Assembly (NCBI RefSeq): GCF_001425825.1 | Contig: NZ_LMDM01000001.1 | Span: 442,204-506,203 of the forward strand | Length of the DNA stretch: 64,000 nucleotides | Origin: Rhizobacter sp. Root1238 | GTDB lineage: Bacteria; Pseudomonadota; Gammaproteobacteria; Burkholderiales; Burkholderiaceae_C | Reading direction: 5' to 3' | In this document: piece after piece, positions 47,661 through 59,065 of the stretch | Numbering within the stretch: the stretch's first letter is position 1 | Layout: the number at the start of each line of letters is the position of its first letter | Translations under genes and position numbers: made by a program | Notes under the pieces: model-generated | What the model saw: the letters and a program-made list of their open reading frames with translations, nothing else | The model's database searches: none | Told to the model about the DNA's origin: nothing

Positions 47661-48215
47661 TCAGGGCTTCGCGGGTGCAGCAGGTGCCGTGAATGGCTTG
47701 ACCGTGCCGCAATCGCTGCCCAGCCAGCTCGCCGTCATCGTCATCTGCGACGTGCGGGCCTGCCCTTTCATCGTCATCGTCGTCGAGGTCTTCACGGTGT
47801 AGCTCTCGGGGCTCGCGAAGGTGACCTCGCCATCGGTCTCCGACGGCATCGGCTCGGTGCAGCTCGAATGCCATTTCCAGACGCTGCCGCTGCGCGAGCC
47901 GACATCGGTCTTGCAGCGGGTCTGCGCCTCTTGCCAGCGGCCCTGGTCGAGCGATTCCTTCGTGTGGCAGATCTTGAGTCCGCCGGTCGGGCCGCCGCGC
48001 GCCTTCATCGCCGCCTCCATGCGGGCGCGCGCTTCGGGCGGCATGTCCTTCAGGCGCTGCGCCATGTCGGGCATCGGCTGGCCGTTGACGAGGCGCTCGC
48101 TCTTCACCTCCCACAGGCCCGGCTTGATCGGCGGCGCGTTCTGCGCCTGCACGGCCATGCCATGGCTCGACAACAGCAGGCCCAGTGACGCGAGGCGAAG
48201 GCGGAAGCGGCGCAT
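47661..48215 (-). CDS. DUF3617 family secreted protein
   Basis: 184 residues. Signal peptide at 1-25 (ending VQAQ). PPIKPGLWEVKSERLVNG is the DUF3617 opening; pairs of cysteines (LKICHTKESL, TRCKTDV, SSCTEP, SDCGTV) suggest disulfides in the periplasm. Function unknown. Convergent with atpC. Confidence 0.87.
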   Translation of the reverse strand: MRRFRLRLASLGLLLSSHGMAVQAQNAPPIKPGLWEVKSERLVNGQPMPDMAQRLKDMPPEARARMEAAMKARGGPTGGLKICHTKESLDQGRWQEAQTRCKTDVGSRSGSVWKWHSSCTEPMPSETDGEVTFASPESYTVKTSTTMTMKGQARTSQMTMTASWLGSDCGTVKPFTAPAAPAKP

Positions 48216-48292
48216 GGCGGTCTCCTGACGCGGTAGGTGCGCGGATGATGGCACGCAGCCTGCGCCCGACCAAGTGGCCCGATACTGCGGCG

Positions 48293-49093
48293 ATGTCGCT
48301 GATCGATGAAGCCCTGCGCGCCGGCCACGCGCCCGCACCGCGCAACCCCACCGCGCTGCAACGCGTGCTGGTGGCCGGCGGTGCCGGCCCGCTCGGCTCG
48401 GCCTTGCTCGAAAGCCTGCTGTCGGTGCGGGCGTTCGCGCCGGTCAGCGTGCTCGTCACGCAGCCGACGCGCGCCGCGTTGCATGGCCTGCGCGCAGTGC
48501 TGTGGCCCGACGGCACGCCGCTGCCGCCGGGCGACGAGCAGGTCGGCGTGATCGTGTTCGACCGCGAGCGCCATGCCAACGGCCGCGAGCTGGCCTTCTA
48601 CCGGCCCGAACCGGCCGAGCTGCCTGCCATCGCGGCGCAATGGCAGGCGCGCGGCGTGCGCCACCTGCTCGTGGTGATGCCGCACACGATGGCGAGCCTG
48701 CCGGATGCGCTGAAGCGCGGGCTGGCCAACCTGGACGAGCACGCGGTCGCGGCACTCGGCTTCGAGCACCTGGTGTTCATGCGCACCGCGCAGGCCGGTG
48801 CGAACGAGCGCGTCAGCCATCCGGCGCAGCGCCTGGCTCACTGGATGCTGTCGCAACTGCAGATGATGGTGCCGCAGCGCGACCGGCCGGTGCGCGCGCA
48901 GAAGGTCGCGCAGTTCGCGGCGCAGGTGGCAGCCCGGCTCGCGCAGAGCCCGCCCGGCACACGCGTCGTGCCGCCGGAAACGGTGTGGGAGGCCGCGCAG
49001 GTCGACGACATCGCCGGTCTCGCGCAGCGCTGGCTCAACGGGCCAGAGCCAGCGCCAATGCCTGCTGTATCGGAGCGGGCGGCGCGGCCGTAG
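48293..49093 (+). CDS. NAD(P)-binding Rossmann-fold protein, unknown function
   Basis: 266 residues. LQRVLVAGGAGPLGSALLESLL is a glycine-rich dinucleotide motif of the NmrA/extended SDR kind. The catalytic YxxxK of SDR enzymes is not evident, so it may be a non-catalytic redox sensor or an atypical reductase. Another in-frame ATG lies at 48245. The 3' end overlaps the convergent GT51 gene by 59 bp. Confidence 0.75.
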   Translation: MSLIDEALRAGHAPAPRNPTALQRVLVAGGAGPLGSALLESLLSVRAFAPVSVLVTQPTRAALHGLRAVLWPDGTPLPPGDEQVGVIVFDRERHANGRELAFYRPEPAELPAIAAQWQARGVRHLLVVMPHTMASLPDALKRGLANLDEHAVAALGFEHLVFMRTAQAGANERVSHPAQRLAHWMLSQLQMMVPQRDRPVRAQKVAQFAAQVAARLAQSPPGTRVVPPETVWEAAQVDDIAGLAQRWLNGPEPAPMPAVSERAARP

Positions 49094-50354
49094 CATCCTC
49101 TGGCACCGCACGCGTGGCGTTGCCACCGCGCGCCGGCGGCTTCGGCGTGCGCGGCACCGGCCGCATCTGCGACAGCACCCAGCGTACGCGCGCCGCATTG
49201 ACCTCGCCGCGCGCATCGAAGCGCGCCAGCTCCAGGTCGGGGTTGTGCAGCAGGCTGGCCAGCCACGCGGCCTCGGCCGGCGTCAGCTTGTCGACGCGCT
49301 TGTGCAGCAGCTGCGCCGCGGCCGCATGCGCACCGCAGCGGCCCTGGCCCCAGGGCACCAGCGACAGGTAGAGGTGCATCACGCGCGCCTTGCCGAGCGT
49401 GCGGTCCAGCTCGACGGCATACAGCAGCTCGCGCAGCTTGCGCGCATGGCCGCGGGCGCCGCCGGTGTAGACCAGCCGCGCGAGCTGCTGCGACAAGGTG
49501 CTGGCGCCGCGCTGCGGTTCGAACGACAGCGCGTGGCCGATCTCGTCGAGGTCGTAGCCGGTGTGCTCGTGAAAGCGCTGGTCCTCGGCGGCGATCACCG
49601 CGCGCGGCAGCCAGGTGCCGAAGCCGCCGGCCGGCACCGCGCCGTCGGTGTTGCAGTTCGGCGCGGCATTCAGCAGCGCTTCGGTGCCCAGCCCCGCGAC
49701 GCGAAAGCCGTCGAGCCGCGGGCGGAACTCCAGCGTGCGCTCGGGCAGCCGCAGCCGCAGGTCGAAGCGCATCAGCCCGTCGACCTGCGCATGCGGCAGT
49801 TCGGGAATGGTCGATGCGAACAGCGCGAACGCATCGGCGATCGGCGTCACGTCGCCTTGCACATTCAACTCGAGCCGCTGCGGCGTCAGCACCGCGCGCC
49901 AGCGGCCGCGCACCGCATGCGCCGGCTCGCCGAGCGCGAAGTCGCCCTGCAGGTTCATGTCGGCGTCGCGCGCCAGCGTGACCACCAGGCGCGTCAGCCG
50001 CACCGCATCGCCCGGCAGGCCGATGCCGCGCAGCGCGCACGGTGCGCAGGTGGCCCGCCAGGCATCGGGACCGTCCGGCGCGATCGCGACGCGGCCGAAG
50101 GGCGTGCGCACCGTGCGGCCTTCGAGCACCCGCAGCATTACCGGGTGCGTCGCGAGCCGGATCACCGCCGGCATGCTGATCGCGCGCTGCCACGGGCCGA
50201 TGTGCAGCGTCTGCGCCCACTCGCCGTCGACCGGCCGCAGCAGGCGCAGCATCGCCCACCCGCCCACCAGCAGTGCGAGCAGCAACGCCGCCAGCACGCC
50301 GGTGATCCACAACGCCAACTTCGTTCGCCAACTCGTCACGCGCCAAGCTTTCAC
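49035..50354 (-). CDS. GT51 family peptidoglycan glycosyltransferase with large N-terminal extension
   Basis: 439 residues, GTG start. Residues about 12-35 are a membrane helix. Residues about 40-235 form a beta-rich extracytoplasmic region (MNLQGDFALGEPAHAVRGRWRAVL in pieces; RLELNVQGDVTPIADAFALF) reminiscent of AsmA/DUF-type barrels. The GT51 domain follows with the catalytic Glu of AVIAAEDQRFHEHTGYD, then QRGASTLSQQLAR and LDRTLGKARVMHLYLSLVPWG. There is no transpeptidase domain, so it is a monofunctional lipid II polymerase like MtgA but larger. It ends the exosortase operon and its start overlaps the EpsI-like stop (GTGA), so translation is coupled. Confidence 0.9.
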   Translation of the reverse strand: MKAWRVTSWRTKLALWITGVLAALLLALLVGGWAMLRLLRPVDGEWAQTLHIGPWQRAISMPAVIRLATHPVMLRVLEGRTVRTPFGRVAIAPDGPDAWRATCAPCALRGIGLPGDAVRLTRLVVTLARDADMNLQGDFALGEPAHAVRGRWRAVLTPQRLELNVQGDVTPIADAFALFASTIPELPHAQVDGLMRFDLRLRLPERTLEFRPRLDGFRVAGLGTEALLNAAPNCNTDGAVPAGGFGTWLPRAVIAAEDQRFHEHTGYDLDEIGHALSFEPQRGASTLSQQLARLVYTGGARGHARKLRELLYAVELDRTLGKARVMHLYLSLVPWGQGRCGAHAAAAQLLHKRVDKLTPAEAAWLASLLHNPDLELARFDARGEVNAARVRWVLSQMRPVPRTPKPPARGGNATRAVPEDATAAPPAPIQQALALALAR

Positions 50355-50896
50355 AATGCCCTCGCTGTCGTGATGGCCTGCCACGGGCCGGTGCTCTGCC
50401 CAAGCTGTGCTGCCCAGAACCAGCTGGACGCATCGGTGAAGGCCGCGCCGTCGGCCCCGACGATCCGTTCGCACACGCGGGTGCGCTGGCCGTTGCGCTC
50501 GGCCACGAAGCAACGCCACAGCCGCTGCGCGTCGTCGCGCTCCAGCCGGGCCTGCTCGATGCGGTAGCCGAGCCCGCGGTAGCAATCGGCGGCCGGGTGC
50601 AGCATGCGGGTCGGCGTGCGCACCTCGCGCATCACCAGCACCTGCGCACCGTCGGTGAGCCGCGCGATGCGGCCGGGGAACTGCGCTGCAAAGCGCTGCT
50701 CGACGGCGCTCAGCGCGAGCGGGCGAAGCGCGCGGCCCTCCCATTCGATCGGCCACTCGAAGGCGGCATCGGTCGCCGCGACACCCGTGCGGTCGCGCGG
50801 CGTGCCGAGCACCGGCAGCAGCGCACAGGCCAGCAGCAGGGCCGCGAAGCCCAGCTTGTGCCGCAGGCCGTCGCGGTCATTGCGGCGCAGCATCAT
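50351..50896 (-). CDS. EpsI-like exosortase-associated protein
   Basis: 181 residues. A membrane helix or signal at about 13-30 (KLGFAALLLACALLPVLG) precedes a secreted domain with MLHPAADCYRGLGYRI and two later cysteines (WRCFVAE, TRVCERI). EpsI-type proteins of exosortase loci have this size, an N-terminal anchor and an H-P-x(4)-CY-x-GxGY-like segment. Their biochemical role is unknown; they are always found beside an exosortase or fused to it. GGAGG precedes ATG 50896. The gene overlaps the exosortase gene by 20 bp and the GT51 gene by 4 bp. Confidence 0.78.
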   Translation of the reverse strand: MMLRRNDRDGLRHKLGFAALLLACALLPVLGTPRDRTGVAATDAAFEWPIEWEGRALRPLALSAVEQRFAAQFPGRIARLTDGAQVLVMREVRTPTRMLHPAADCYRGLGYRIEQARLERDDAQRLWRCFVAERNGQRTRVCERIVGADGAAFTDASSWFWAAQLGQSTGPWQAITTARAL

Positions 50897-51716
50897 CCAC
50901 CTCCCGCATCAGCACCGTCACCGCGGTGCAGACCATCGCCAGCACCGCGAGACCGATGCCCTGGTGCCAGGCCTCGGCCAGCGGTCCGCGCGACTCCAGC
51001 GCCACCAGCACGGTGTTGCGCAGCACGTTGCCGCACAGCACCAGCGCGCCGACCGCCGGCAGCCGCCGCATGAAACTGCGTTCGCGCAGCCCGCCCAGCA
51101 AGGCCATCGTGCAGGCGCAGAAGTACGCCATCCAGACCATCTGCACGCCGGAGCACGGCGCATCGACGATCACCAGCTGTCCGTCCACCCGCATCGCGGT
51201 GCCGCTGCGCTCGGCCGCGCGGCCGGCGAGCTGCAGCAGCCAGGTGCTGCATTGGGCCGTCACCAGCCGCAGCGGGAAGCCGGCGTAGAACTGCAGCGAC
51301 GAGATGACCGGCAGCGACAGCACGGCCAAGCCCGCGAGCGGCAGCGTGGCCTGGCCCGACGGCGCGATGGCGCGCCAGCCGCAGGCCAGCGCCAGCGCGG
51401 CCAGCCCTGCGCCGGCGAGCGGTGGTGCCACCGCCTGCGACACGGTGGCCAGCAACGTCAGCGCGCCGGCCGCGATCCACCAGCCCGGCCGCGGGTTGCC
51501 GCGCAGTCCGTGCGCCTGCCAGACGACCCAGCCGAGCAGCACCGCCACCGCGGCCAGCCCGAGCGGATCGTCCGAGCCATCGGCCAGCCGACCCGCCGCC
51601 CAGCGCCAGTGCGGCCACAGCGCCACCGCCTGCAGCCCGAGCCAGGCGAGCGGCGGCATCGCTTCGAAGCGCTCCAGCCAGCGGCCGGTGGCGGAGGTGG
51701 ACAACACGGTTCCCAT
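50877..51716 (-). CDS. Exosortase (integral membrane transpeptidase-like sorting enzyme)
   Basis: 279 residues with eight or so membrane segments. The three residues proposed as catalytic in exosortases are present: Cys188 in DAPCSGVQM, Arg233 in GNVLRNTVLVALE and His251 in EAWHQGIG. Exosortases recognise PEP-CTERM tails and are thought to cleave and re-attach the substrate. The only PEP-CTERM protein I see in the window is encoded 18 bp upstream in the same operon, and no extracellular polysaccharide genes surround it, unlike the EpsH-type loci. This suggests a dedicated, single-substrate enzyme. Which named exosortase subfamily it belongs to I cannot say from sequence alone. Confidence 0.93.
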   Translation of the reverse strand: MGTVLSTSATGRWLERFEAMPPLAWLGLQAVALWPHWRWAAGRLADGSDDPLGLAAVAVLLGWVVWQAHGLRGNPRPGWWIAAGALTLLATVSQAVAPPLAGAGLAALALACGWRAIAPSGQATLPLAGLAVLSLPVISSLQFYAGFPLRLVTAQCSTWLLQLAGRAAERSGTAMRVDGQLVIVDAPCSGVQMVWMAYFCACTMALLGGLRERSFMRRLPAVGALVLCGNVLRNTVLVALESRGPLAEAWHQGIGLAVLAMVCTAVTVLMREVDDAAPQ

Positions 51717-51734
51717 GGTGGTGCCTCATGCCTT

Positions 51735-53813
51735 TCACGCGACGGCTGCCGCGCGGCGGCGCTGCAGCGCGACGCCGGCCACGCCGAACACCACCAGCAG
51801 CGCCAGCCAGGCCGCCGGCTCCGGCGTGCTCGGCACCTCGGCGCCGAGCGCGGTCTCGGCCACGCCCTGCGGCAACGGCAGCGGCTGGTCGACGGTCGGC
51901 GCGAGCGACGGGTTCGGGTTGCGCACCACCTCGTCGACCGCGATGAAGCTGGTGTACTGCGTCAGCAGGCTGTACTTCAGGCCGAGCGCGGTGATGGCTT
52001 CCTTCTCGGCGTTGCCGCCGACCAGCGACTCCTGGTCGCTGAGTGCCGCGATGCGCTGGCGGGCCCACAGGTGGCGCAGCGCCGACGAGGTCTGGTCCTC
52101 ATGGCCGGCCACCATCAGCTCCTCGCGCCACGGGCCGTCGGCCGCACGGCCATCGAGCACCAGCCGGCCTGCGGCCGGCACGCCCGGCTGCGAGCGCCAC
52201 TTGCCCTGCAGCAGCACCGGGCGGCCGCCCAGCACGTCGGGCAGCGCGGCCGGTTCGACGTCGTAGACGTCCAGCCCGTCGAAGCGCGCCTTCAGCTGCG
52301 TCAGCACCGGCGAGTCGATCATGCGGCGCAGGCGCTCGGCCTGCGCGGCGGCCTCGGCCGGCTTCGTGACGACGAAGGCCTCGCCCTGGCCGGCACGCGC
52401 CAGCCCTTCGATCAGCGCGCGGTTGACGCTGCTGCCGATGCCGAACGCGAACACGTTGAACTCGTTCAGGTGGCGGCGCACCAGCTGGAACAACTCGGAC
52501 TCGACCGTCACGTAGCCGTCGGTCACGACGATCACGCTGCGCGACAGGTCCGCGGGCTTCGGCAGTTCGGCCACGCGGCGCAGCGCCGGCACGATCTCGG
52601 TGCCGCCGCCGCCGCTGGTCTGCGTCAGGGCCTGCAGCGCGCGCTCGATGTTGGCGCGGGTGGCCGGCACCGAGGTCGGCGACAGCATGCGGCTGCTGCC
52701 GGAGAACAGCATCACGTTGAAGGTGTCGCTCGGGCGCAGGCCGCCGATCAGGTTCTGCATCAGCACCTTCGCGGTGTCCAGCGGGTAGCCGTGCATCGAG
52801 CCGGAGATGTCGACCACGAAGATGTAGTCGCGCGGCGTGACCTGCTGCAGCGGCACGGCCTTCGGCGGCTCGACCATCGCGAGGAAGAAGTTCTCGCCGC
52901 CGGTCAGGTCGTCGCCTCGGTACAGCATCAGGCCGGACGCGATGCGGTCGCCCGCCAGGCGGTAGCTCAGGATGAAGTCGCGGTTGTTGGCAGCCTTCGC
53001 GGCGGCAAGGCTCACGCTCGCATGCGCGGTGTCAGCCCCCTGCACGCGGATCTCGTGCGATGACGAGACGATGTCCTTCACCGCGATCGGCGCGTCGACC
53101 CGCAGCTTCAGGTCGAACGCGGTGTTCGATTCGACGCCGCCGCGCAGGTAGGGCGTGGCGGCCCAGGTCGGCCGGCCGGCCGCATCGGCCACGGACGGGC
53201 TGCCGTAGCGCGGCCCGACGACCGTCGGGAACACGAAGCCGTACTGCGCGTCGGTCGGCACCAGCAGTTCGGTGTAGCGCAGCTCCACCGCCACGTCGTC
53301 GCCCGGCAGGATGTTGGCGACGTTCATCTCGAACACATTGGGCCGGTGCTGTTCCAGCAGTGCGCTGGTCTTGCCCTCGCGCTTCGCGTTGTCGTACTCG
53401 ATGCGCGCCTGCTGCTTCTCGCGGATGCGGGCGGTCAGCAGCCGGTTGCCCAGGCGCACGTTCATCGCGTAGATCGCGGCCTGCGTCGAGCCGGGGAACA
53501 CGTAGCGGGCCTCGATCGGCCGCTGGCCTTCGTTGCGGTAGTGCTGCGTGACGGTCACGTCGGCGATCACGCCGCTGATGCGCACGTCGACCGCGGTCGA
53601 CTTCAGCGGCAACCGGTCGGTGCCGGGATCGGCGTTGTCGATGAAGAAGTACGGGCTCTCGCCCTTGCGGGCCTCGGAGTCGTCGGCACGGGCCGGCGAC
53701 CACGCGAGCGTGAGGATGGCCGCGAACAGCGACAGCGCAATGCACAGCATCACGCGGCCGACGCTGGTGAGGGGGCGAAGCGGGTGGAACGGAACGCGGC
53801 GCAGCGGGGACAT
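51735..53813 (-). CDS. Secreted VIT/VWA domain protein with PEP-CTERM sorting tail
   Basis: 692 residues. Residues 1-43 are a long signal peptide (ending SPARA). A VIT domain (about 55-190: ISGVIADVTVTQHYRNEGQ, IEARYVFPGSTQAAIYAM) precedes a VWA domain with an intact metal-ion site: Asp335 of DISGSMHG, then FNVMLFSG and VTDGYV. A helical region follows (LRHLWARQRIAAL, KYSLLTQYTSFIAVDE). The last 30 residues are PSTPEPAAW, a hydrophobic helix and QRRRAAA, a textbook PEP-CTERM signal. This VIT/VWA arrangement is that of the target proteins of dedicated sortase systems in marine proteobacteria, and of inter-alpha-trypsin-inhibitor heavy chains. AGGAG lies six bases before ATG 53813. First gene of the operon. 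Confidence 0.94.
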   Translation of the reverse strand: MSPLRRVPFHPLRPLTSVGRVMLCIALSLFAAILTLAWSPARADDSEARKGESPYFFIDNADPGTDRLPLKSTAVDVRISGVIADVTVTQHYRNEGQRPIEARYVFPGSTQAAIYAMNVRLGNRLLTARIREKQQARIEYDNAKREGKTSALLEQHRPNVFEMNVANILPGDDVAVELRYTELLVPTDAQYGFVFPTVVGPRYGSPSVADAAGRPTWAATPYLRGGVESNTAFDLKLRVDAPIAVKDIVSSSHEIRVQGADTAHASVSLAAAKAANNRDFILSYRLAGDRIASGLMLYRGDDLTGGENFFLAMVEPPKAVPLQQVTPRDYIFVVDISGSMHGYPLDTAKVLMQNLIGGLRPSDTFNVMLFSGSSRMLSPTSVPATRANIERALQALTQTSGGGGTEIVPALRRVAELPKPADLSRSVIVVTDGYVTVESELFQLVRRHLNEFNVFAFGIGSSVNRALIEGLARAGQGEAFVVTKPAEAAAQAERLRRMIDSPVLTQLKARFDGLDVYDVEPAALPDVLGGRPVLLQGKWRSQPGVPAAGRLVLDGRAADGPWREELMVAGHEDQTSSALRHLWARQRIAALSDQESLVGGNAEKEAITALGLKYSLLTQYTSFIAVDEVVRNPNPSLAPTVDQPLPLPQGVAETALGAEVPSTPEPAAWLALLVVFGVAGVALQRRRAAAVA

Positions 53814-53872
53814 GGTTTTCTCCTGGGGCGCGCCGCTCGGTGGGCGCGTGGCCGCAAGGATCGAGCGTCGAT

Positions 53873-53922
53873 GCGAAGCGGCTTCGAAGTCGCCACCGTG
53901 TTGTGTGAAGCGCACGTGAAGC
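53873..53922. promoter_or_regulatory. Divergent regulatory region with a cre-tag and phased direct repeats
   Basis: GTGAAGC at 53905-53911 and 53916-53922 is a perfect 7-4-7 direct repeat. On the minus strand it reads TTCAC-N6-TTCAC, the binding tag reported for the response regulator CreB (BlrA in Aeromonas), and it points toward the VIT/VWA gene 92 bp away. A weaker pair of the same kind (GCGAAGC, TCGAAGT) lies at 53873-53890. Such 11-bp phased repeats are bound by OmpR/PhoB-type regulators in general. Confidence 0.65.
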
Positions 53923-53975
53923 CTGTTCCGACCCGAGCCGCCGCGAAAGGCAAGCCGCTGGCGATAGAGTCGGGC

Positions 53976-55580
53976 ATGTTCCGCATCCGCCTGTCGCTCG
54001 CATTGGCCGCCCTGGTCGCCCTGGTCTGCCTCCAGGCGGTGGCCGTCCGCTGGGGGGCGACCCGGGTGCATGCGTATGCGCAGCACAGCCGGCTCGCGAG
54101 CGACATCCTGTCCGAGTTGCTCGCGCTGTCGGCCAACAAGCAGCGGTTGCGCGTCTGGGCGTCGCAGCAGCTGATGGGCGCCGACGCCTCGCTCGAGGCG
54201 CGGGACCGGCTGCTGGCCCAGATGCAGGCCAGCGCGGCCGACCTGAAGAAGCTGGCGGCGCGCGACCTCGAGGCCCGGCGCGAACTTGCGGCCGACGATG
54301 GCGTGCCGGTGCCGCCCGAGGTGGCGCAGCTGGTGACCGTCACCGAGCTGCTGGACGACAACATCGTGGCCGTCCGTGCACGGCTGTTGCAGCTGGCGCC
54401 GCTCGATCGCGGCAGCGAGTTCAGCACCGTCTGGCGCGAACTCAACCAGGTGTTCGACACCGCCCGCGGCCGCGACCTGCGCGAACTGGTCAACGGCGCG
54501 ATCGAGCGCCAGCGCAGCGTGGTGCCGACCGCGCGCGCCGCCACCGAACGCGGCCTGGACCTGCTGCGGCTGCAGAGCGGCGCCATGGTGCTGGTCACGC
54601 TGGTCGCGGCAGTCGGGCTGGCGGTGCACCTGGGCCGGCGCCTGCAGCGGCCGCTCGACCGCCTGCTCGCGGGCATCCAGGCGCTGCAATCCGGCGACCT
54701 GGGTCACCGCGTGGCGATCGGTTCGGGCGACGAGTTCGACCGCCTGGCCGGGCATTTCAACGCGATGGCCGCCGAGCTGCAGCAGCACCGCAGCGAGGCC
54801 GACGCGGCGCGGCAGCGCCTGGAAGATGCGGTGCAGGCACGCACGCGCGAACTGAGCACGGCGCACGAGGCGCTGCAGCACATCGACGCGCGCCGCCGCC
54901 AACTCTTCGCCGACCTGGGCCACGAGCTGCGCACGCCGGCCACCGCCATCCGGGGCGAGGCGGAGATCGCGCTGCGCGGCGCCGACAAGGCGCCTGCCGA
55001 CTACAAGCAGACGCTGTCGCGCATCGTCGGCGGCGTGACGCAGCTGGCCGGCGTCATCGACGACCTGCTGCTGATCGCGCGGGCCGAGGCGGAGCAGCTC
55101 GCGATGCGCTTCGATGCGGTCGACCTGCCGGCGCTGCTCGGCGACGCGGCGGAACAGGCCGAAGCGCTCGGTGCGCAGCACGGGGTCAGCGTGCACCTCG
55201 ACGAGCCGGCGCAGGAAGCCGCCCGCAACGCCACCGTGCACGCCGACGCCGACCGCCTGCGACAGGCCGTGGTGATCGCGCTCGACAATGCGGTCCGCTA
55301 CTCGCGGCGCGGCGGCACGGTGCGCCTGGGCTGGCAGCTGCGCGACGACCGCATCGAGGTCCTGGTGAAGGACGACGGCATCGGCATCGATGCCGAGGAA
55401 TTGCCGCTCGTCTTCGAGCGCTTCGTGCGCGGCCGCCGGGCGCGCTCGCACCGGCCCGACGGCACCGGCATCGGTTTATCGATCGCGCAGGCCATCGTGC
55501 GGGCGCATCGCGGCGAGATCCGCCTGGACAGCCGCGTCGACGAGGGCACCACCGTGTGCATCGAGCTGCCATGCCGATGA
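53976..55580 (+). CDS. Sensor histidine kinase divergent from the exosortase operon
   Basis: 534 residues. Membrane helices at about 3-25 and 205-228 enclose a periplasmic helical domain of roughly 180 residues. HAMP (RPLDRLLAGIQALQSGDLGHRV) and a coiled coil lead to His316 in FADLGHELRTPATAIRGEAE, followed by the ATPase domain (ALDNAVRYSRRG, VKDDGIGIDAEELPLVFERFVRG, GTGIGLSIAQAIVRAH). Its partner regulator overlaps its 3' end. In dedicated sortase systems a kinase/regulator pair likewise flanks the VIT/VWA and sortase genes. Confidence 0.93.
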   Translation: MFRIRLSLALAALVALVCLQAVAVRWGATRVHAYAQHSRLASDILSELLALSANKQRLRVWASQQLMGADASLEARDRLLAQMQASAADLKKLAARDLEARRELAADDGVPVPPEVAQLVTVTELLDDNIVAVRARLLQLAPLDRGSEFSTVWRELNQVFDTARGRDLRELVNGAIERQRSVVPTARAATERGLDLLRLQSGAMVLVTLVAAVGLAVHLGRRLQRPLDRLLAGIQALQSGDLGHRVAIGSGDEFDRLAGHFNAMAAELQQHRSEADAARQRLEDAVQARTRELSTAHEALQHIDARRRQLFADLGHELRTPATAIRGEAEIALRGADKAPADYKQTLSRIVGGVTQLAGVIDDLLLIARAEAEQLAMRFDAVDLPALLGDAAEQAEALGAQHGVSVHLDEPAQEAARNATVHADADRLRQAVVIALDNAVRYSRRGGTVRLGWQLRDDRIEVLVKDDGIGIDAEELPLVFERFVRGRRARSHRPDGTGIGLSIAQAIVRAHRGEIRLDSRVDEGTTVCIELPCR

Positions 55581-56260
55581 ACCTGCTGGTGGTCGAGGAC
55601 GACGTCCGCGTCGCCGATTTCCTGATGCGCGGCCTGAAGGCCGAAGGCTATGCCGTGCAGCTCGCCCGCACCGGGCCGCAGGGGCTCGAACTGACGCGCA
55701 GCACCGCGCCGTCGCTGCTGATCCTGGACCTGATGCTGCCCGGGCTGAGTGGCCTGGAGCTGTGCCAGACGCTGCGTGCCGAGGGGTGCCACGTGCCGAT
55801 GCTGATGCTCACCGCGATGAGCAAGCTCGAGGACAAGGTGAACGGCCTGCGCCTCGGTGCGGACGACTACCTGACCAAGCCGTTCGCGTTCGAGGAACTG
55901 CTGGCGCGCATCGAGGCGCTGCTGCGGCGTGGCCGCGAGCAGCGCCCGCGCGCCAGCAGCCTGCAGGTGGCCGACCTGGTGCTGGACCTCGAACGCATGC
56001 AGGCGAGCCGGGCCGGCAGGCCGATCGCGCTGACGGCGCGGGAACTTGCGTTCCTCGAACTGCTGATGAGCGCGCCGGGGCGCGTGTACAGCCGCGAACG
56101 CATCCTCTCGAACGTCTGGGGCACGAACGAGGATCCGCTGACCAACGTGGTCGACGTCTACGTGCGCCGCCTGCGCGCCAAGGTGGACGAGGGCCATGCG
56201 CTGGCGCTGATCAAGACGGTGCGCGGGCTGGGCTACCGGCTCGACGCGCAGCCCGGCTGA
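55571..56260 (+). CDS. OmpR-family response regulator, partner of the preceding kinase
   Basis: 229 residues. Receiver domain with Asp53 (LLILDLMLPGLSG) and DDYLTKPFAFEEL, then an OmpR/PhoB winged helix (LTARELAFLELLMSAPGRVYSRERIL; VVDVYVRRLRAKVD; VRGLGYRLD). ATG 55577 (ATGA overlap with the kinase stop codon) is an alternative start two codons later. It is a candidate to bind the phased direct repeats at 53873-53922 and 56273-56334. Confidence 0.94.
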   Translation: MPMNLLVVEDDVRVADFLMRGLKAEGYAVQLARTGPQGLELTRSTAPSLLILDLMLPGLSGLELCQTLRAEGCHVPMLMLTAMSKLEDKVNGLRLGADDYLTKPFAFEELLARIEALLRRGREQRPRASSLQVADLVLDLERMQASRAGRPIALTARELAFLELLMSAPGRVYSRERILSNVWGTNEDPLTNVVDVYVRRLRAKVDEGHALALIKTVRGLGYRLDAQPG

Positions 56261-56272
56261 CGGCGCGCCGCC

Positions 56273-56334
56273 GTTCATCCGGCGTTCATTTCGGCGTCAG
56301 CGGCCGTTCATCGCGGCGCACGGGTCCCGTTCAT
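56273..56334 (+). promoter_or_regulatory. Array of GTTCAT direct repeats in helical phase
   Basis: GTTCAT occurs at 56273, 56284, 56306 and 56329, spacings of 11, 22 and 23 bp, with a degenerate unit (GCGTCAG) filling the gap near 56295. The first two give TTCAT-N6-TTCAT, one base per half-site away from the cre-tag. It ends 86 bp before the start of the small secreted protein. Confidence 0.6.
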
Positions 56335-56419
56335 GGGTCGCTCGAACAATGGCCTCCATGCATCGCGACGCGGTGCAGCGCCGCCGAGGCGGTGTCATCC
56401 AACCAGACGAGGACCCTTC

Positions 56420-56896
56420 ATGAACCTGCTGAGAGCAGCTCTCCTTCCCGCGATCGGATTCAGCCTGTCGACCGCTGCCCTGGCGCAGACGCCGTCCACC
56501 CAGGCCTGCCAGCCCACCGACGACAAGCAGGTCGCGGCCCTGTTCGACCGCTGGAACGATTCGCTGCGCACGCTCGATCCGGACAAGGTCGTCGCGAACT
56601 ATGCGAGCGACGGCGTGCTGCTGCCCACCGTGTCGGACACGCCGCGCACGAACCCGGCCGAGATCCGCGACTACTTCGTCAAGTTCCTGAAGAACTCGCC
56701 GCAGGGCAGGATCGACCGCCGCATCATCAAGATCGGCTGCAACGTCGTGCAGGACGTCGGCACCTACACCTTCACGCTGAAGGGCGGCAAGCAGGTGCAT
56801 GCCCGCTACACCTACGTCTACGAATGGCAGAACGGCAGCTGGCTGATTGCGCACCACCACTCGTCGGCGATGCCGGAGGGCGGCGCGGGCAAGTGA
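56420..56896 (+). CDS. Small secreted NTF2-like (SgcJ/EcaC, DUF4440-type) protein
   Basis: 158 residues. Signal peptide at 1-22 (ending ALAQ). The mature protein is an NTF2-like cone: VAALFDRWNDSLRTLDPDKVVANYASDGVLLPTVS in two parts, then YTYVYEWQNGSWLIAHHHSSAMP. Two cysteines (QACQPT, KIGCNVV) may form a disulfide. It follows the two-component pair and is preceded by the phased repeat array, which suggests it is a regulon member. Ligand unknown. Confidence 0.88.
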   Translation: MNLLRAALLPAIGFSLSTAALAQTPSTQACQPTDDKQVAALFDRWNDSLRTLDPDKVVANYASDGVLLPTVSDTPRTNPAEIRDYFVKFLKNSPQGRIDRRIIKIGCNVVQDVGTYTFTLKGGKQVHARYTYVYEWQNGSWLIAHHHSSAMPEGGAGK

Positions 56897-56919
56897 CGGC
56901 GGCGCCTGACGGCTGCCCG

Positions 56920-58350
56920 TCAGGCGCCAAGCGGCAGCGACAGTGTCGCGATGGCCCCGCCGGCTACCGCGTTCTTCAGCGTGATGCGCCCTTCGTGCAG
57001 TTCGGCGATCTCGCTGACGAACGAGAGCCCGAGCCCGGTGCTCTTCTTGCGCGAATGCGGCCGCGCGAGCGAATAGAACTTCTCGAACACCTTCGATTCG
57101 GCGTAGTCGGGAATGCCGGGCCCGCTGTCCTGCACGCGCAGGTCCACGCTGCGCCGGTTGATCTGCAGCGACAGCCGCACCGTGCCGCCCTCGGGCGAGA
57201 AATCGAGCGCGTTGTCGAGCAGGTTCGACAGCGCGCGCTGCAGCAGGAAGGCATCGCCGTCGACGCTCGCGTCGGGCCCGTCCTCGACCACGATCGTCAG
57301 CTTTCGCGTGGCCGCGGCCGCCTGGGCGCTCGCGGCGATCTCGTTGACCAGCGGCCGCAGCGCGACCGGCGCGCGCCGCTCCAGGCTGCGCCGCGACTCC
57401 AGTGCGGTCAGCTCCATCATCCGGTCGACCAGCTCCTGAATGCGGTGCGTCTCGCGCGCGATGTTGGCGACGAAGCGCGCCCGGTCGGCATCGGGCATCG
57501 GCTCCTGCAGCAGCTCGGCCGCGCCGCGGATCGCCGACAGCGGGCTCTTGACCTCGTGCGTCAGCGTCTGCACGTAGTCGGCCACGTAGTTGCGGCCGGC
57601 CAAGGCGTCGCGCATCTCGTCGTAGGCGGCGCCGATCGCGCCGAGCGCGCGCCGGCCGAGCCGCGGCAGGCTGAAGCTGCGCTGCGAGCGCACATAGCGC
57701 ACGTAGTCGGCGATCAGCCCGAACGGCCGCACCAGCCACACCGAGACGATCACCACCAGCAGCAGCACCGCGACCACCGAGGTCATGCCGACCAGCAGCG
57801 TCTTGCGCCGCGCCGCATCGACGAACTGCCCGAAGCTCTGCACCGGCTTGCCGACGCTGACCGCGCCGATGATCTCGTTGCGCGCACGCACCGGCGCGGC
57901 CACGTACATCACCGCGGTGCGGTTGTCGTTGTCGATGTCGGGCGTGGTGCGCGCGCCGTACTCGCCCTGCAGCGCGCGCCAGACGTCGTGCCACTGCGCG
58001 TAGTCCTCGCCGAGGTGGCGCTGCGTCGAGTCGTAGACCACCTTGCCGGCGCGGTCGGTGACGATCAGCCGCAGCTCGACCCGCGTCTTCTCGAAGCCGA
58101 AGATGTCGGCCTTGAAGCGGCGCGCATACAGCGACTCGAACACCGGCGCGAGCGTCTGCGCGCGCAGCGTGCCGTCCGTCGACGAGGCTTCGAGCGTCGC
58201 GGCGATCAGGTGCGCGGTCTCGACCAGCGACTCCTCGGCCGACTCGCGGTAGCGCGGGTCGATGTCGCCGAGCAGGCGGTACATCAGCACGCCGACGCCG
58301 AACGCGTAGGCGAGCAGGATGCCGACGAAGATCCGCGTTCGCTTCGAGAT
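56920..58350 (-). CDS. creC: Sensor histidine kinase CreC, probably starting at a non-canonical ATC codon
   Basis: Kinase of the CreBC envelope-stress/metabolic two-component system. The sequence follows E. coli CreC closely: periplasmic domain with YGARTTPDIDNDNRTAVMYVAAP and IGAVSVGKP, second membrane helix, HAMP, His in QTLTHEVKSPLSAIRGAAEL, and ATPase motifs (LLDNALDFSPEGG, DSGPGIPDYAESKVFEKFYS, STGLGLSFVSEI). The first ATG/GTG/TTG in frame is GTG 58290, but that cuts away most of the first membrane helix. The helix (RIFVGILLAYAFGVGVLMY) is encoded upstream, and the ATC at 58350-58348 follows a GGAG by seven bases, giving 476 residues, close to the 474 of E. coli CreC. No ATG, GTG or TTG precedes it in frame. 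Confidence 0.9.
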   Translation of the reverse strand: MSKRTRIFVGILLAYAFGVGVLMYRLLGDIDPRYRESAEESLVETAHLIAATLEASSTDGTLRAQTLAPVFESLYARRFKADIFGFEKTRVELRLIVTDRAGKVVYDSTQRHLGEDYAQWHDVWRALQGEYGARTTPDIDNDNRTAVMYVAAPVRARNEIIGAVSVGKPVQSFGQFVDAARRKTLLVGMTSVVAVLLLVVIVSVWLVRPFGLIADYVRYVRSQRSFSLPRLGRRALGAIGAAYDEMRDALAGRNYVADYVQTLTHEVKSPLSAIRGAAELLQEPMPDADRARFVANIARETHRIQELVDRMMELTALESRRSLERRAPVALRPLVNEIAASAQAAAATRKLTIVVEDGPDASVDGDAFLLQRALSNLLDNALDFSPEGGTVRLSLQINRRSVDLRVQDSGPGIPDYAESKVFEKFYSLARPHSRKKSTGLGLSFVSEIAELHEGRITLKNAVAGGAIATLSLPLGA

Positions 58351-58351
58351 G

Positions 58352-59065
58352 TCAGCTCTCCGGCTTCGTGGCCGGCAGGTCCTCGGCCAGCGCGTAGCCG
58401 GTGCCGCGGTGCGTCTTGATCGGCTCCAGCCCCGGCGCGACCAGCTTCATCTTCGCGCGCAGCGTCTTCACGTGCGCGTCGACCGTGCGGTCCAGGCTTT
58501 CGGTGGCGTCGTCCCACACGCGCTCGAGCAGCGTGTCGCGCGAGAACACATGGCCCGGCCGCGAGACCAGCGTCTTCAGCAGGCCGTATTCGTAGCGCGA
58601 CAGCTCCAGCAGCTGGCCGTAGAAGCGGATCTGCCGCCGGCCGTCGTCGATCGCGATCGGCAGCACCGGCCCGGCCGCAGCGATCGGTGCCGGCGCCGGC
58701 TTCGTTGCACGCCTCAGCACCGTGCGAACGCGCGCCACCAGCTCGCGCGGCGAGAACGGCTTCGCGACGTAGTCGTCAGCGCCCAGCTCCAGCCCGACCA
58801 CGCGGTCGATCTCGTCGCTGCGCGCGGTCAGGAACACCACCGGCACGTCGGCGAGCGCGCGGATGCGCTTGAACACCTCGAAGCCGTTGGTGTCGGGCAG
58901 GCCGACGTCGAGGATCACCAAGGCAGGCGGCTGCGCCTGCACCTGCGCGACGGCCTCTTCGCCGGTGGCCACCCAGGCCGGCTCGAAGCCGTCGGTGCGC
59001 AGCGCGTACTGCAGCGTGTCGGCGATGCCGGGTTCGTCTTCGACGATCAGGATGCGCGGCTTCAT
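58352..59065 (-). CDS. creB: Response regulator CreB
   Basis: 237 residues. Receiver with Asp53 ([12 protein letters not shown]) and [13 protein letters not shown], then an OmpR-type winged helix ([29 protein letters not shown] in pieces; [29 protein letters not shown]). CreB in enterobacteria and its BlrA equivalents in Aeromonas bind TTCAC-N6-TTCAC, a site found at 53905-53922 here. The start overlaps the cysK stop (ATGA) and its stop is one base before the putative creC start. Confidence 0.92.

Follow-up and report, generated by a model that had tools for sequence, protein, structure and literature searches.

The stretch of DNA analysed here (the window: 64,000 nucleotides of contig NZ_LMDM01000001.1 of Rhizobacter sp. 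Root1238, belonging to a 6.52 Mb genome) carries an exosortase gene in a close run of four genes, and raises the question of which protein this exosortase sorts, with which partners, and under the control of which regulator. An earlier note on the window had described the run on the minus strand as a VIT/VWA protein with a PEP-CTERM tail, the exosortase, an EpsI-like protein and a GT51 peptidoglycan enzyme, separated or overlapping by 20 bp or less, and had assigned to it a histidine kinase and an OmpR-type response regulator encoded divergently. All six genes are present on these strands, confirming the observation, and the spacing is as described: an 18 bp gap between the VIT/VWA and exosortase genes, then overlaps of 20 bp (exosortase and EpsI-like) and 4 bp (EpsI-like and GT51). 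In addition to what the note had described, we found a second two-component pair, CreC and CreB (56920-59065), on the same strand and upstream of the operon, and a predicted CreB operator at 53905-53920. We consider it probable that the four-gene run is an envelope module under the control of CreBC, centred on an exosortase with one substrate.

The four-gene core and its probable regulator

The exosortase (50877-51716, minus strand) scores 372.7 bits on the exosortase Q model (NF012182, cut-off 270) and is thus a full member of this sequence family, hereafter XrtQ. The family entry gives a name only; the proposed substrate, the GT51 partner and the predicted CreBC control discussed below come from the present analysis. 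XrtQ was found over the cut-off in 61 of 399 genomes of the same bacterial family and in 2 of 369 genomes of the class, the window's own genome being counted in both. We compared 66 other loci, namely those of the 60 other family genomes, that of G311, and five weaker or fragmentary matches. The order VIT/VWA-XrtQ-EpsI-like-GT51 on one strand is kept in 58 of the 61 other loci over the XrtQ cut-off. Named relatives include Albitalea, Caldimonas, Piscinibacter, Schlegelella, Rhodoferax, Variovorax, Polaromonas and Curvibacter. The incomplete loci over the cut-off are those of G403 and G311, which have no GT51 match, and of G758, which lies at a contig end; the weaker loci, also incomplete, are the distant XrtQ-like L077 and L078 and fragments in G514, G485 and G395. 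Outside Burkholderiales, the named relatives are Agitococcus lubricus (Moraxellaceae) and an assembly labelled Moraxellaceae. When the neighbours of XrtQ homologues were tabulated, as the earlier note had suggested, the four-gene core recurred and the divergent kinase and regulator did not. In G395 (L112), CreB, CreC and the operator are followed by the N-terminal part only of an XrtQ-like protein with no VIT match, and the module looks decayed there.

The two-component pair that recurs beside the XrtQ operon is CreB/CreC. In the window, CreC (56920-58344, minus strand; the start is provisional and the whole-genome match covers 56929-58344) scores 581.5 bits on NF008312 (cut-off 356), and CreB (58352-59065, minus strand) scores 323.6 bits on NF008296 (cut-off 273), so that both exceed the curated cut-offs. 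CreC is present in 60 of the 61 XrtQ genomes versus 100 of the 338 genomes without XrtQ (Fisher p 2e-26, kinship ignored), and the only XrtQ genome lacking it, G472, is 76% complete. Of the 61 genomes, 44 have CreC upstream of the VIT gene at a distance of no more than about 7 kb, always on the strand of VIT; in 10 genomes operon and creBC are clearly apart, and contig ends make the arrangement undecidable in the other 7.

Two papers give the direct repeat TTCAC-N6-TTCAC, the cre/blr-tag, as the site of CreB and BlrA (PMC4689548, PMC3660660). The window has this repeat, TTCACGTGCGCTTCAC, at 53905-53920 on the minus strand, in the promoter region as expected of a cre/blr-tag, about 91 bp upstream of the VIT/VWA start codon (ATG at 53813, preceded by an AGGAG-type ribosome-binding site). 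In order to assess its conservation, we scanned 62 VIT upstream regions, including that of the window, allowing one mismatch. The box was found in 59 of them, 56 times exactly, and the three misses (L057, L065, L101) are loci with a truncated VIT match; base-shuffled copies gave a mean of 0.72 regions of 62 with a box. A second scan, with fixed windows and only those loci having the VIT start in view (58 loci), gave an exact box in 55 and a box with one mismatch in the remaining 3. Identical windows in the same orientation were read at ten control genes, each in 6 to 64 loci: XrtQ, EpsI-like, GT51, CreC, CreB, CysM, PriA, AtpC, CreD and the 48185 gene. None had an exact box, and GT51 had a box with one mismatch in 3 of 58 loci. 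A motif with reversed halves was exact at VIT in 1 of 58 loci and within one mismatch in 16. Named genomes formed another set, overlapping in part with the first, in which the box was exact at 34 of the 38 VIT genes that could be read and within one mismatch at all 38. Altogether, 64 of the 68 exact boxes in 61 loci (1.14 Mb) stand at VIT, and the box is also present in Agitococcus (L220) and in the Moraxellaceae assembly (L225). Genome-wide box counts were dropped as evidence for a regulon because they are too near background, and only the position of the box makes the case.

A conserved position next to creBC could in principle reflect inherited gene order only, with an operon that is not a CreB target, and several loci do share a wider neighbourhood of CysM, HemE, PriA and ATP synthase genes. 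Against this, the box stays with the operon where the latter lies 21-86 kb from creBC or well inside another contig (9 of the 10 separate genomes; 7 exact boxes and 2 with one mismatch), the 7 creBC stretches that were fetched from XrtQ genomes and do not include the operon (L185-L191) all lack an exact box, and none of the ten other gene types has one. Mere inheritance of order appears very improbable in view of these results.

The same operator is found at creD. We hand-picked 40 of the 61 XrtQ genomes and 40 of the 100 CreC-positive genomes without XrtQ over the cut-off, mainly complete ones; the second forty includes G395 and G495, both with remnants of the module. CreD was found in 17 of the 40 XrtQ genomes versus 39 of the 40 others. 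In five CreC loci without XrtQ (L179-L183), creD follows creC on its strand at a distance of up to about 2.6 kb, and among the 30 best-scoring creD loci of the 56 CreD genomes, 29 have the box upstream of creD with at most one mismatch. Twelve XrtQ loci have creD divergent from VIT; there, no box faces creD, and a box facing VIT is present in the shared region in all 12. The window's genome has creD elsewhere (C1:60675), without an exact box. The XrtQ module thus tends to occupy the place otherwise held by creD, with the same operator.

Three more exact boxes were seen in the window's own genome. One (C14:54122-54137; L238:4122) lies about 60 bp before the ATG of an open reading frame of 549 residues, which is followed by an alpha-2-macroglobulin gene (L238:5733-11090), and CreB may also govern this predicted operon. 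The two others, on C8 (L115) and C26 (L117), may be due to chance; judging by eye, a phosphatase-like gene has one of them in its 5' part, and the other is close to a secretin-like and a kinase-like gene.

The divergent pair (53976-56260) was taken by the earlier note to be the dedicated regulator of the operon, as in the dedicated sortase systems of proteobacteria. It consists of the histidine kinase (53976-55580, plus strand) and the OmpR-type response regulator (55556-56260, plus strand), and is followed by a SnoaL-like/SgcJ protein (56333-56896, plus strand; TIGR02246 54.7 bits). The pair is adjacent to and divergent from the operon in the window's genome, and the region that separates VIT from the kinase gene holds the CreB box. 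Moreover, the distant XrtQ-like locus L077 has a divergent regulator and kinase beside its VIT-domain PEP-CTERM gene, and L063 has a different response-regulator-like frame (35% identity to the window's regulator) just upstream of VIT. However, the pair has no close match beside XrtQ in the 66 other loci; after removal of better CreB and CreC matches, three weak matches at 30-35% identity remained (L063, L076, L100). The sibling locus L092 is 93% identical to the window up to 53924 and 94% identical again from 56932, and has about 0.5 kb in place of the 3.0 kb stretch 53925-56931 of the window. The pair was found in 2 of 11 congeneric genomes, the window's own included; in the other congener, G765 (L235), kinase, regulator and SnoaL gene stand side by side, and the 20 kb fetched there contain neither XrtQ nor VIT nor CreC. 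The divergent pair of L077, for its part, is closest to CreB and CreC, under the NCBIfam cut-offs. The window's divergent pair therefore looks like a recent insertion, and we judge the three-gene cassette 53925-56931 to be outside the conserved system. As the extra stretch starts four bases past the box, the window's operon keeps its operator. Control of the operon by the divergent pair was rejected on conservation and is, in our estimate, extremely improbable. The regulator of the pair has as its best NCBIfam match TIGR01387 (cztR/silR/copR) at 229.2 bits, under the cut-off of 279.2. In L063, the response-regulator-like frame is on the same strand as VIT, and CreC is on another contig. In L078, for which BLAST only was used, the regulator is 39% identical to CreB and the kinase 25% identical to CreC.

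In the 43-64 kb part of the window we also recognised by eye ATP synthase, CysM, HemE and PriA genes; CreC and CreB were identified by profile match. No exopolysaccharide genes were recognised in this part, the one looked at, in agreement with the earlier note. A gene at 48185-49093 (plus strand) adjoins that of GT51, is near the operon in part of the relatives too, and has no Pfam or NCBIfam match.

The VIT/VWA protein as the proposed substrate of XrtQ

The protein encoded at 51735-53813 on the minus strand (692 residues) has a VIT domain (PF08487, 116.7 bits) and a VWA_3 domain (81.1 bits). Its tail has the PEP-CTERM architecture, with a P-E-P motif, a hydrophobic stretch and a basic end, and it scores under the curated PEP-CTERM cut-offs (16.5 of 20.7 on PF07589 and 20 of 35 on NF035944). 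The residues Thr-Pro-Glu of the tail are conserved in 61 or 62 of 62 aligned sequences. PEP occurs within the last 45 residues in 58 of the 62 VIT frames, TPE only in 2, and neither in 2, where the aligned Pro-Glu, present in all 62, is farther from the end of the frame. On the side of the enzyme, the residues Cys188, Arg233 and His251 pointed out in the earlier note are invariant among aligned XrtQ sequences, the window included (66 of 66, 66 of 66 and 64 of 64, respectively).

In order to have a measure of how many proteins XrtQ may serve, we counted PEP-CTERM matches with TIGR02595 at E up to 1, and scored other exosortases by PF09721; 26 of the 61 XrtQ genomes have no other exosortase match. 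In a first scan, the median number of PEP-CTERM matches was 1 in these 26 genomes versus 7.5 in 20 genomes with further exosortases. Four genomes without XrtQ, with 1, 19, 5 and 113 matches in the same scan, were kept out of this comparison. A second scan, made on the 26 XrtQ-only genomes alone and with more first-look candidates, gave 44 matches, 22 of which coincide in their coordinates with the VIT gene of the locus. The VIT protein is among the matches in 22 of the 26 genomes, the sole match in 12 and the best in 20. Neither G647 nor G466 has a VIT match, and G554 and G415 have no match at all; since the VIT genes of the latter two end in TPEA and TPEP, respectively, the TIGR02595 profile overlooks some tails. 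Most of the 22 remaining matches are weak or come from incomplete genomes: G647 has three strong ones, G529 two and G466 one; those of G564 and G447 are middling, and all others have E values higher than 0.15. The second PEP-CTERM-like frame of G447 was considered as a second VIT protein and rejected, there being no BLAST match in the stretch.

These counts bear on the alternative that XrtQ is a general exosortase which also processes PEP-CTERM proteins encoded outside the locus. The window's genome has 16 TIGR02595 matches, and the strong extra matches in XrtQ-only genomes might be further substrates of this kind. However, the window's genome also encodes XrtB (400.6 bits, cut-off 275), 3.5 kb from an EpsD-type gene, which can account for the 16 matches; XrtQ-only genomes have a median of one match; and G647 and G529 are incomplete (89% and 70%) and may miss another exosortase, while G466 is 99% complete. 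We consider a general role quite improbable. The genome-wide count proposed by the earlier note thus favours a single substrate in XrtQ-only genomes and is complicated in the window's genome by XrtB. Together with the conservation of the core, the 22 of 44 matches that are VIT genes uphold the claim of the note that the exosortase serves one VIT/VWA surface protein. That XrtQ is a dedicated exosortase is well supported, and we propose from the sequences that the VIT/VWA protein is its sole substrate.

The EpsI-like protein and the GT51 enzyme

The EpsI-like protein (50351-50896, minus strand; 181 residues) has as its sole NCBIfam match the C-terminal part of the exosortase T model, NF033770. 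XrtQ matches positions 17-266 of this model (45.4 bits) and the EpsI-like protein positions 290-446 (48.1 bits; cut-off 250). In 10 of the 64 loci having both, the two are in one open frame. Shared frames and the match to two parts of one model suggest that XrtQ and the EpsI-like protein may work as one unit. The EpsI-like protein has no Pfam match up to E 10, so none to DUF3485, which we take to be the Pfam entry for EpsI; the label rests on the earlier note and on the resemblance to the C-terminal part of exosortase T, itself presumably EpsI-like. The predicted model (predicted local distance difference test score 89) has one N-terminal helix and a soluble alpha/beta domain, and gave no match in the PDB at E 0.001 or below. 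His100, Asp104 and Cys105 are conserved in 65 of 65 sequences, the window included. They belong to a conserved His-Pro-Ala-x-Asp-Cys motif, which could be a separate catalytic site.

The GT51 peptidoglycan glycosyltransferase (49035-50354, minus strand; 439 residues, GTG start) scores 120.6 bits on PF00912 and, on the monofunctional transglycosylase model TIGR02070, 107.1 bits, under the cut-off of 182.65. Its model has one N-terminal helix, a confidently predicted beta-rich N-terminal domain and the GT51 catalytic domain. Among the structures that it matches are those of GT51 enzymes such as 2oqo (E 1.1e-7), and the top alignments span about 150 residues, a length that would fit the GT51 part by itself (ranges not given). 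The Glu, GxST and QQ motifs, which we take to be catalytic, are conserved in 58 or 59 of 59 sequences, and four cysteines nearly so. The glutamates E263 and E315 (445-residue numbering) are present in 59 of 59 and in at least 90% of a second set of 35, which holds one out-of-place GT51. The N-terminal domain has no Pfam match up to E 10 (a relative, L194, was searched) and is found in 63 of the 399 genomes, 59 of the 61 with XrtQ versus 4 of the 338 others (G485, which has a split XrtQ, G495, G632 and G750). In nine loci (L081-L084, L089-L091, L099, L103), a further, partial match to GT51 lies between VIT and CreC, on the other strand.

This distribution, together with the overlap with the EpsI-like gene and the conserved catalytic motifs, would be expected if GT51 were chemically coupled to sorting, with lipid II or the nascent glycan made by this enzyme as the acceptor of the VIT/VWA protein, which XrtQ would thereby anchor to peptidoglycan. 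However, VIT-XrtQ-EpsI occurs without GT51, which is absent from the whole genome of G403 and, as far as the fetched sequence extends, from G311 and Agitococcus. In G495 (L184) the state is the opposite: CreB, CreC and the box are accompanied by a short remnant of VIT and an uninterrupted GT51 frame, and the stretch gave no match to XrtQ or to the EpsI-like protein. From G495 and G403, GT51 belongs to the module but is separable either way from the sorting part. We regard chemical coupling, and with it anchoring to peptidoglycan, as unlikely: the N-terminal domain of GT51 is nearly confined to XrtQ genomes, yet GT51 and XrtQ are separate in some. A more specific form, in which a CreBC-driven wall-repair kit would have the exosortase attach the VIT/VWA protein to the fresh glycan or lipid II of its dedicated GT51, seems rather improbable; if true, exosortase anchoring would be joined to peptidoglycan synthesis. 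G632 (L237) was considered as a second case of GT51 kept after the loss of VIT and XrtQ, and was rejected because the catalytic core is missing from its GT51 frame and the assembly is fragmented.

Related systems and proposed function

Among known systems, the XrtN system (TIGR04476/TIGR04477) is a named precedent for an exosortase paired with a VIT-domain protein, but XrtQ scores 42.7 bits on TIGR04476 (cut-off 200) and the window's VIT protein has no TIGR04477 match at E 0.01. The locus that resembles the XrtN system is L077, at 118.3 bits for a cut-off of 250; its VIT-domain PEP-CTERM protein is closest to the XrtN-system VIT protein, with NCBIfam scores under the cut-offs, and its VIT domain exceeds the Pfam cut-off (42.2 of 26.5). 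Taken with its CreBC-like pair, this one locus provides a lead that the association of a VIT protein, an exosortase and such a pair may be old. The dedicated sortase system (TIGR03785, TIGR03787, TIGR03788) shares a VIT/VWA target of the same wider family and a nearby two-component pair. It differs in that the window's VIT/VWA protein scores 418.8 bits of the 551.65 required by TIGR03788, CreC 118.1 of 612.2 and CreB 138.5 of 335.7 on the sortase-system models, and the enzyme is an exosortase; no sortase match was found among the ten locus proteins scanned, and TIGR03785 and TIGR03787 were not among the best 25 families listed for the divergent pair. With the CreBC-CreD/BlrAB regulon the locus has in common CreB, CreC and the TTCAC-N6-TTCAC operator, whereas VIT-XrtQ-EpsI-GT51 stands here downstream of creC and creD elsewhere. 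Exosortase T (NF033770) holds an exosortase part and an EpsI-like part in a single model, but XrtQ and the EpsI-like protein are far under its cut-off.

We propose the following for the CreBC-controlled module. CreC, which elsewhere responds to disturbed peptidoglycan synthesis, would phosphorylate CreB, which would then bind the predicted box at 53905-53920 and control VIT-XrtQ-EpsI-GT51 as one operon, most likely switching it on, judging from the box, gene order and conservation. As its family suggests, XrtQ would use its Cys/Arg/His site to cut the PEP-CTERM tail of the VIT/VWA protein and hand the protein to an acceptor, with the EpsI-like protein as a probable periplasmic partner in view of the fusions and co-occurrence. 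GT51 would make glycan strands during the same response, and is more likely to repair or reinforce the wall alongside the sorted protein than to supply the sorting acceptor. The stimulus is suggested by work on other species: in P. aeruginosa the loss of PBP4 is reported to activate CreBC (PMC2654508), and in E. coli colicin M, which acts against peptidoglycan precursors, is reported to induce the CreBC regulon (PMC3599342).

Several points weigh against this proposal. The genomes are related and are not independent samples. Agitococcus has no CreBC in the 10 kb fetched on each side, and the absences of GT51 given above count here as well. G385, a clearly separate locus, has no box in the fetched stretch, the VIT match being truncated there, and exact boxes are held by 18 of 19 CreC-less genomes, in keeping with genome-wide counts near background. 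TIGR02595 at E up to 1 also matches in 7 of 14 control genomes, so weak matches to it mean little either way. CreBC is reported to lower creD in S. maltophilia (PMC5402928, PMC4689548), and its signals are disputed, metabolic ones being reported in E. coli. Activation by cell-wall stress is thus an extrapolation from other species, and control might even have the opposite sign.

A literature search, from which subscription papers were mostly out of reach, returned no paper naming exosortase Q and none joining CreBC with an exosortase or with PEP-CTERM proteins; the papers matching the term 'XrtQ' were engineering or physics papers by title. To our knowledge, the exosortase acceptor and physiological role are open questions, and little is known of CreBC targets beyond a few gammaproteobacteria. 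A module of a single substrate, its exosortase, one partner protein and a known switch, as predicted here, would make the questions of acceptor and role testable together, and CreBC would gain a strongly predicted envelope target in Burkholderiales.

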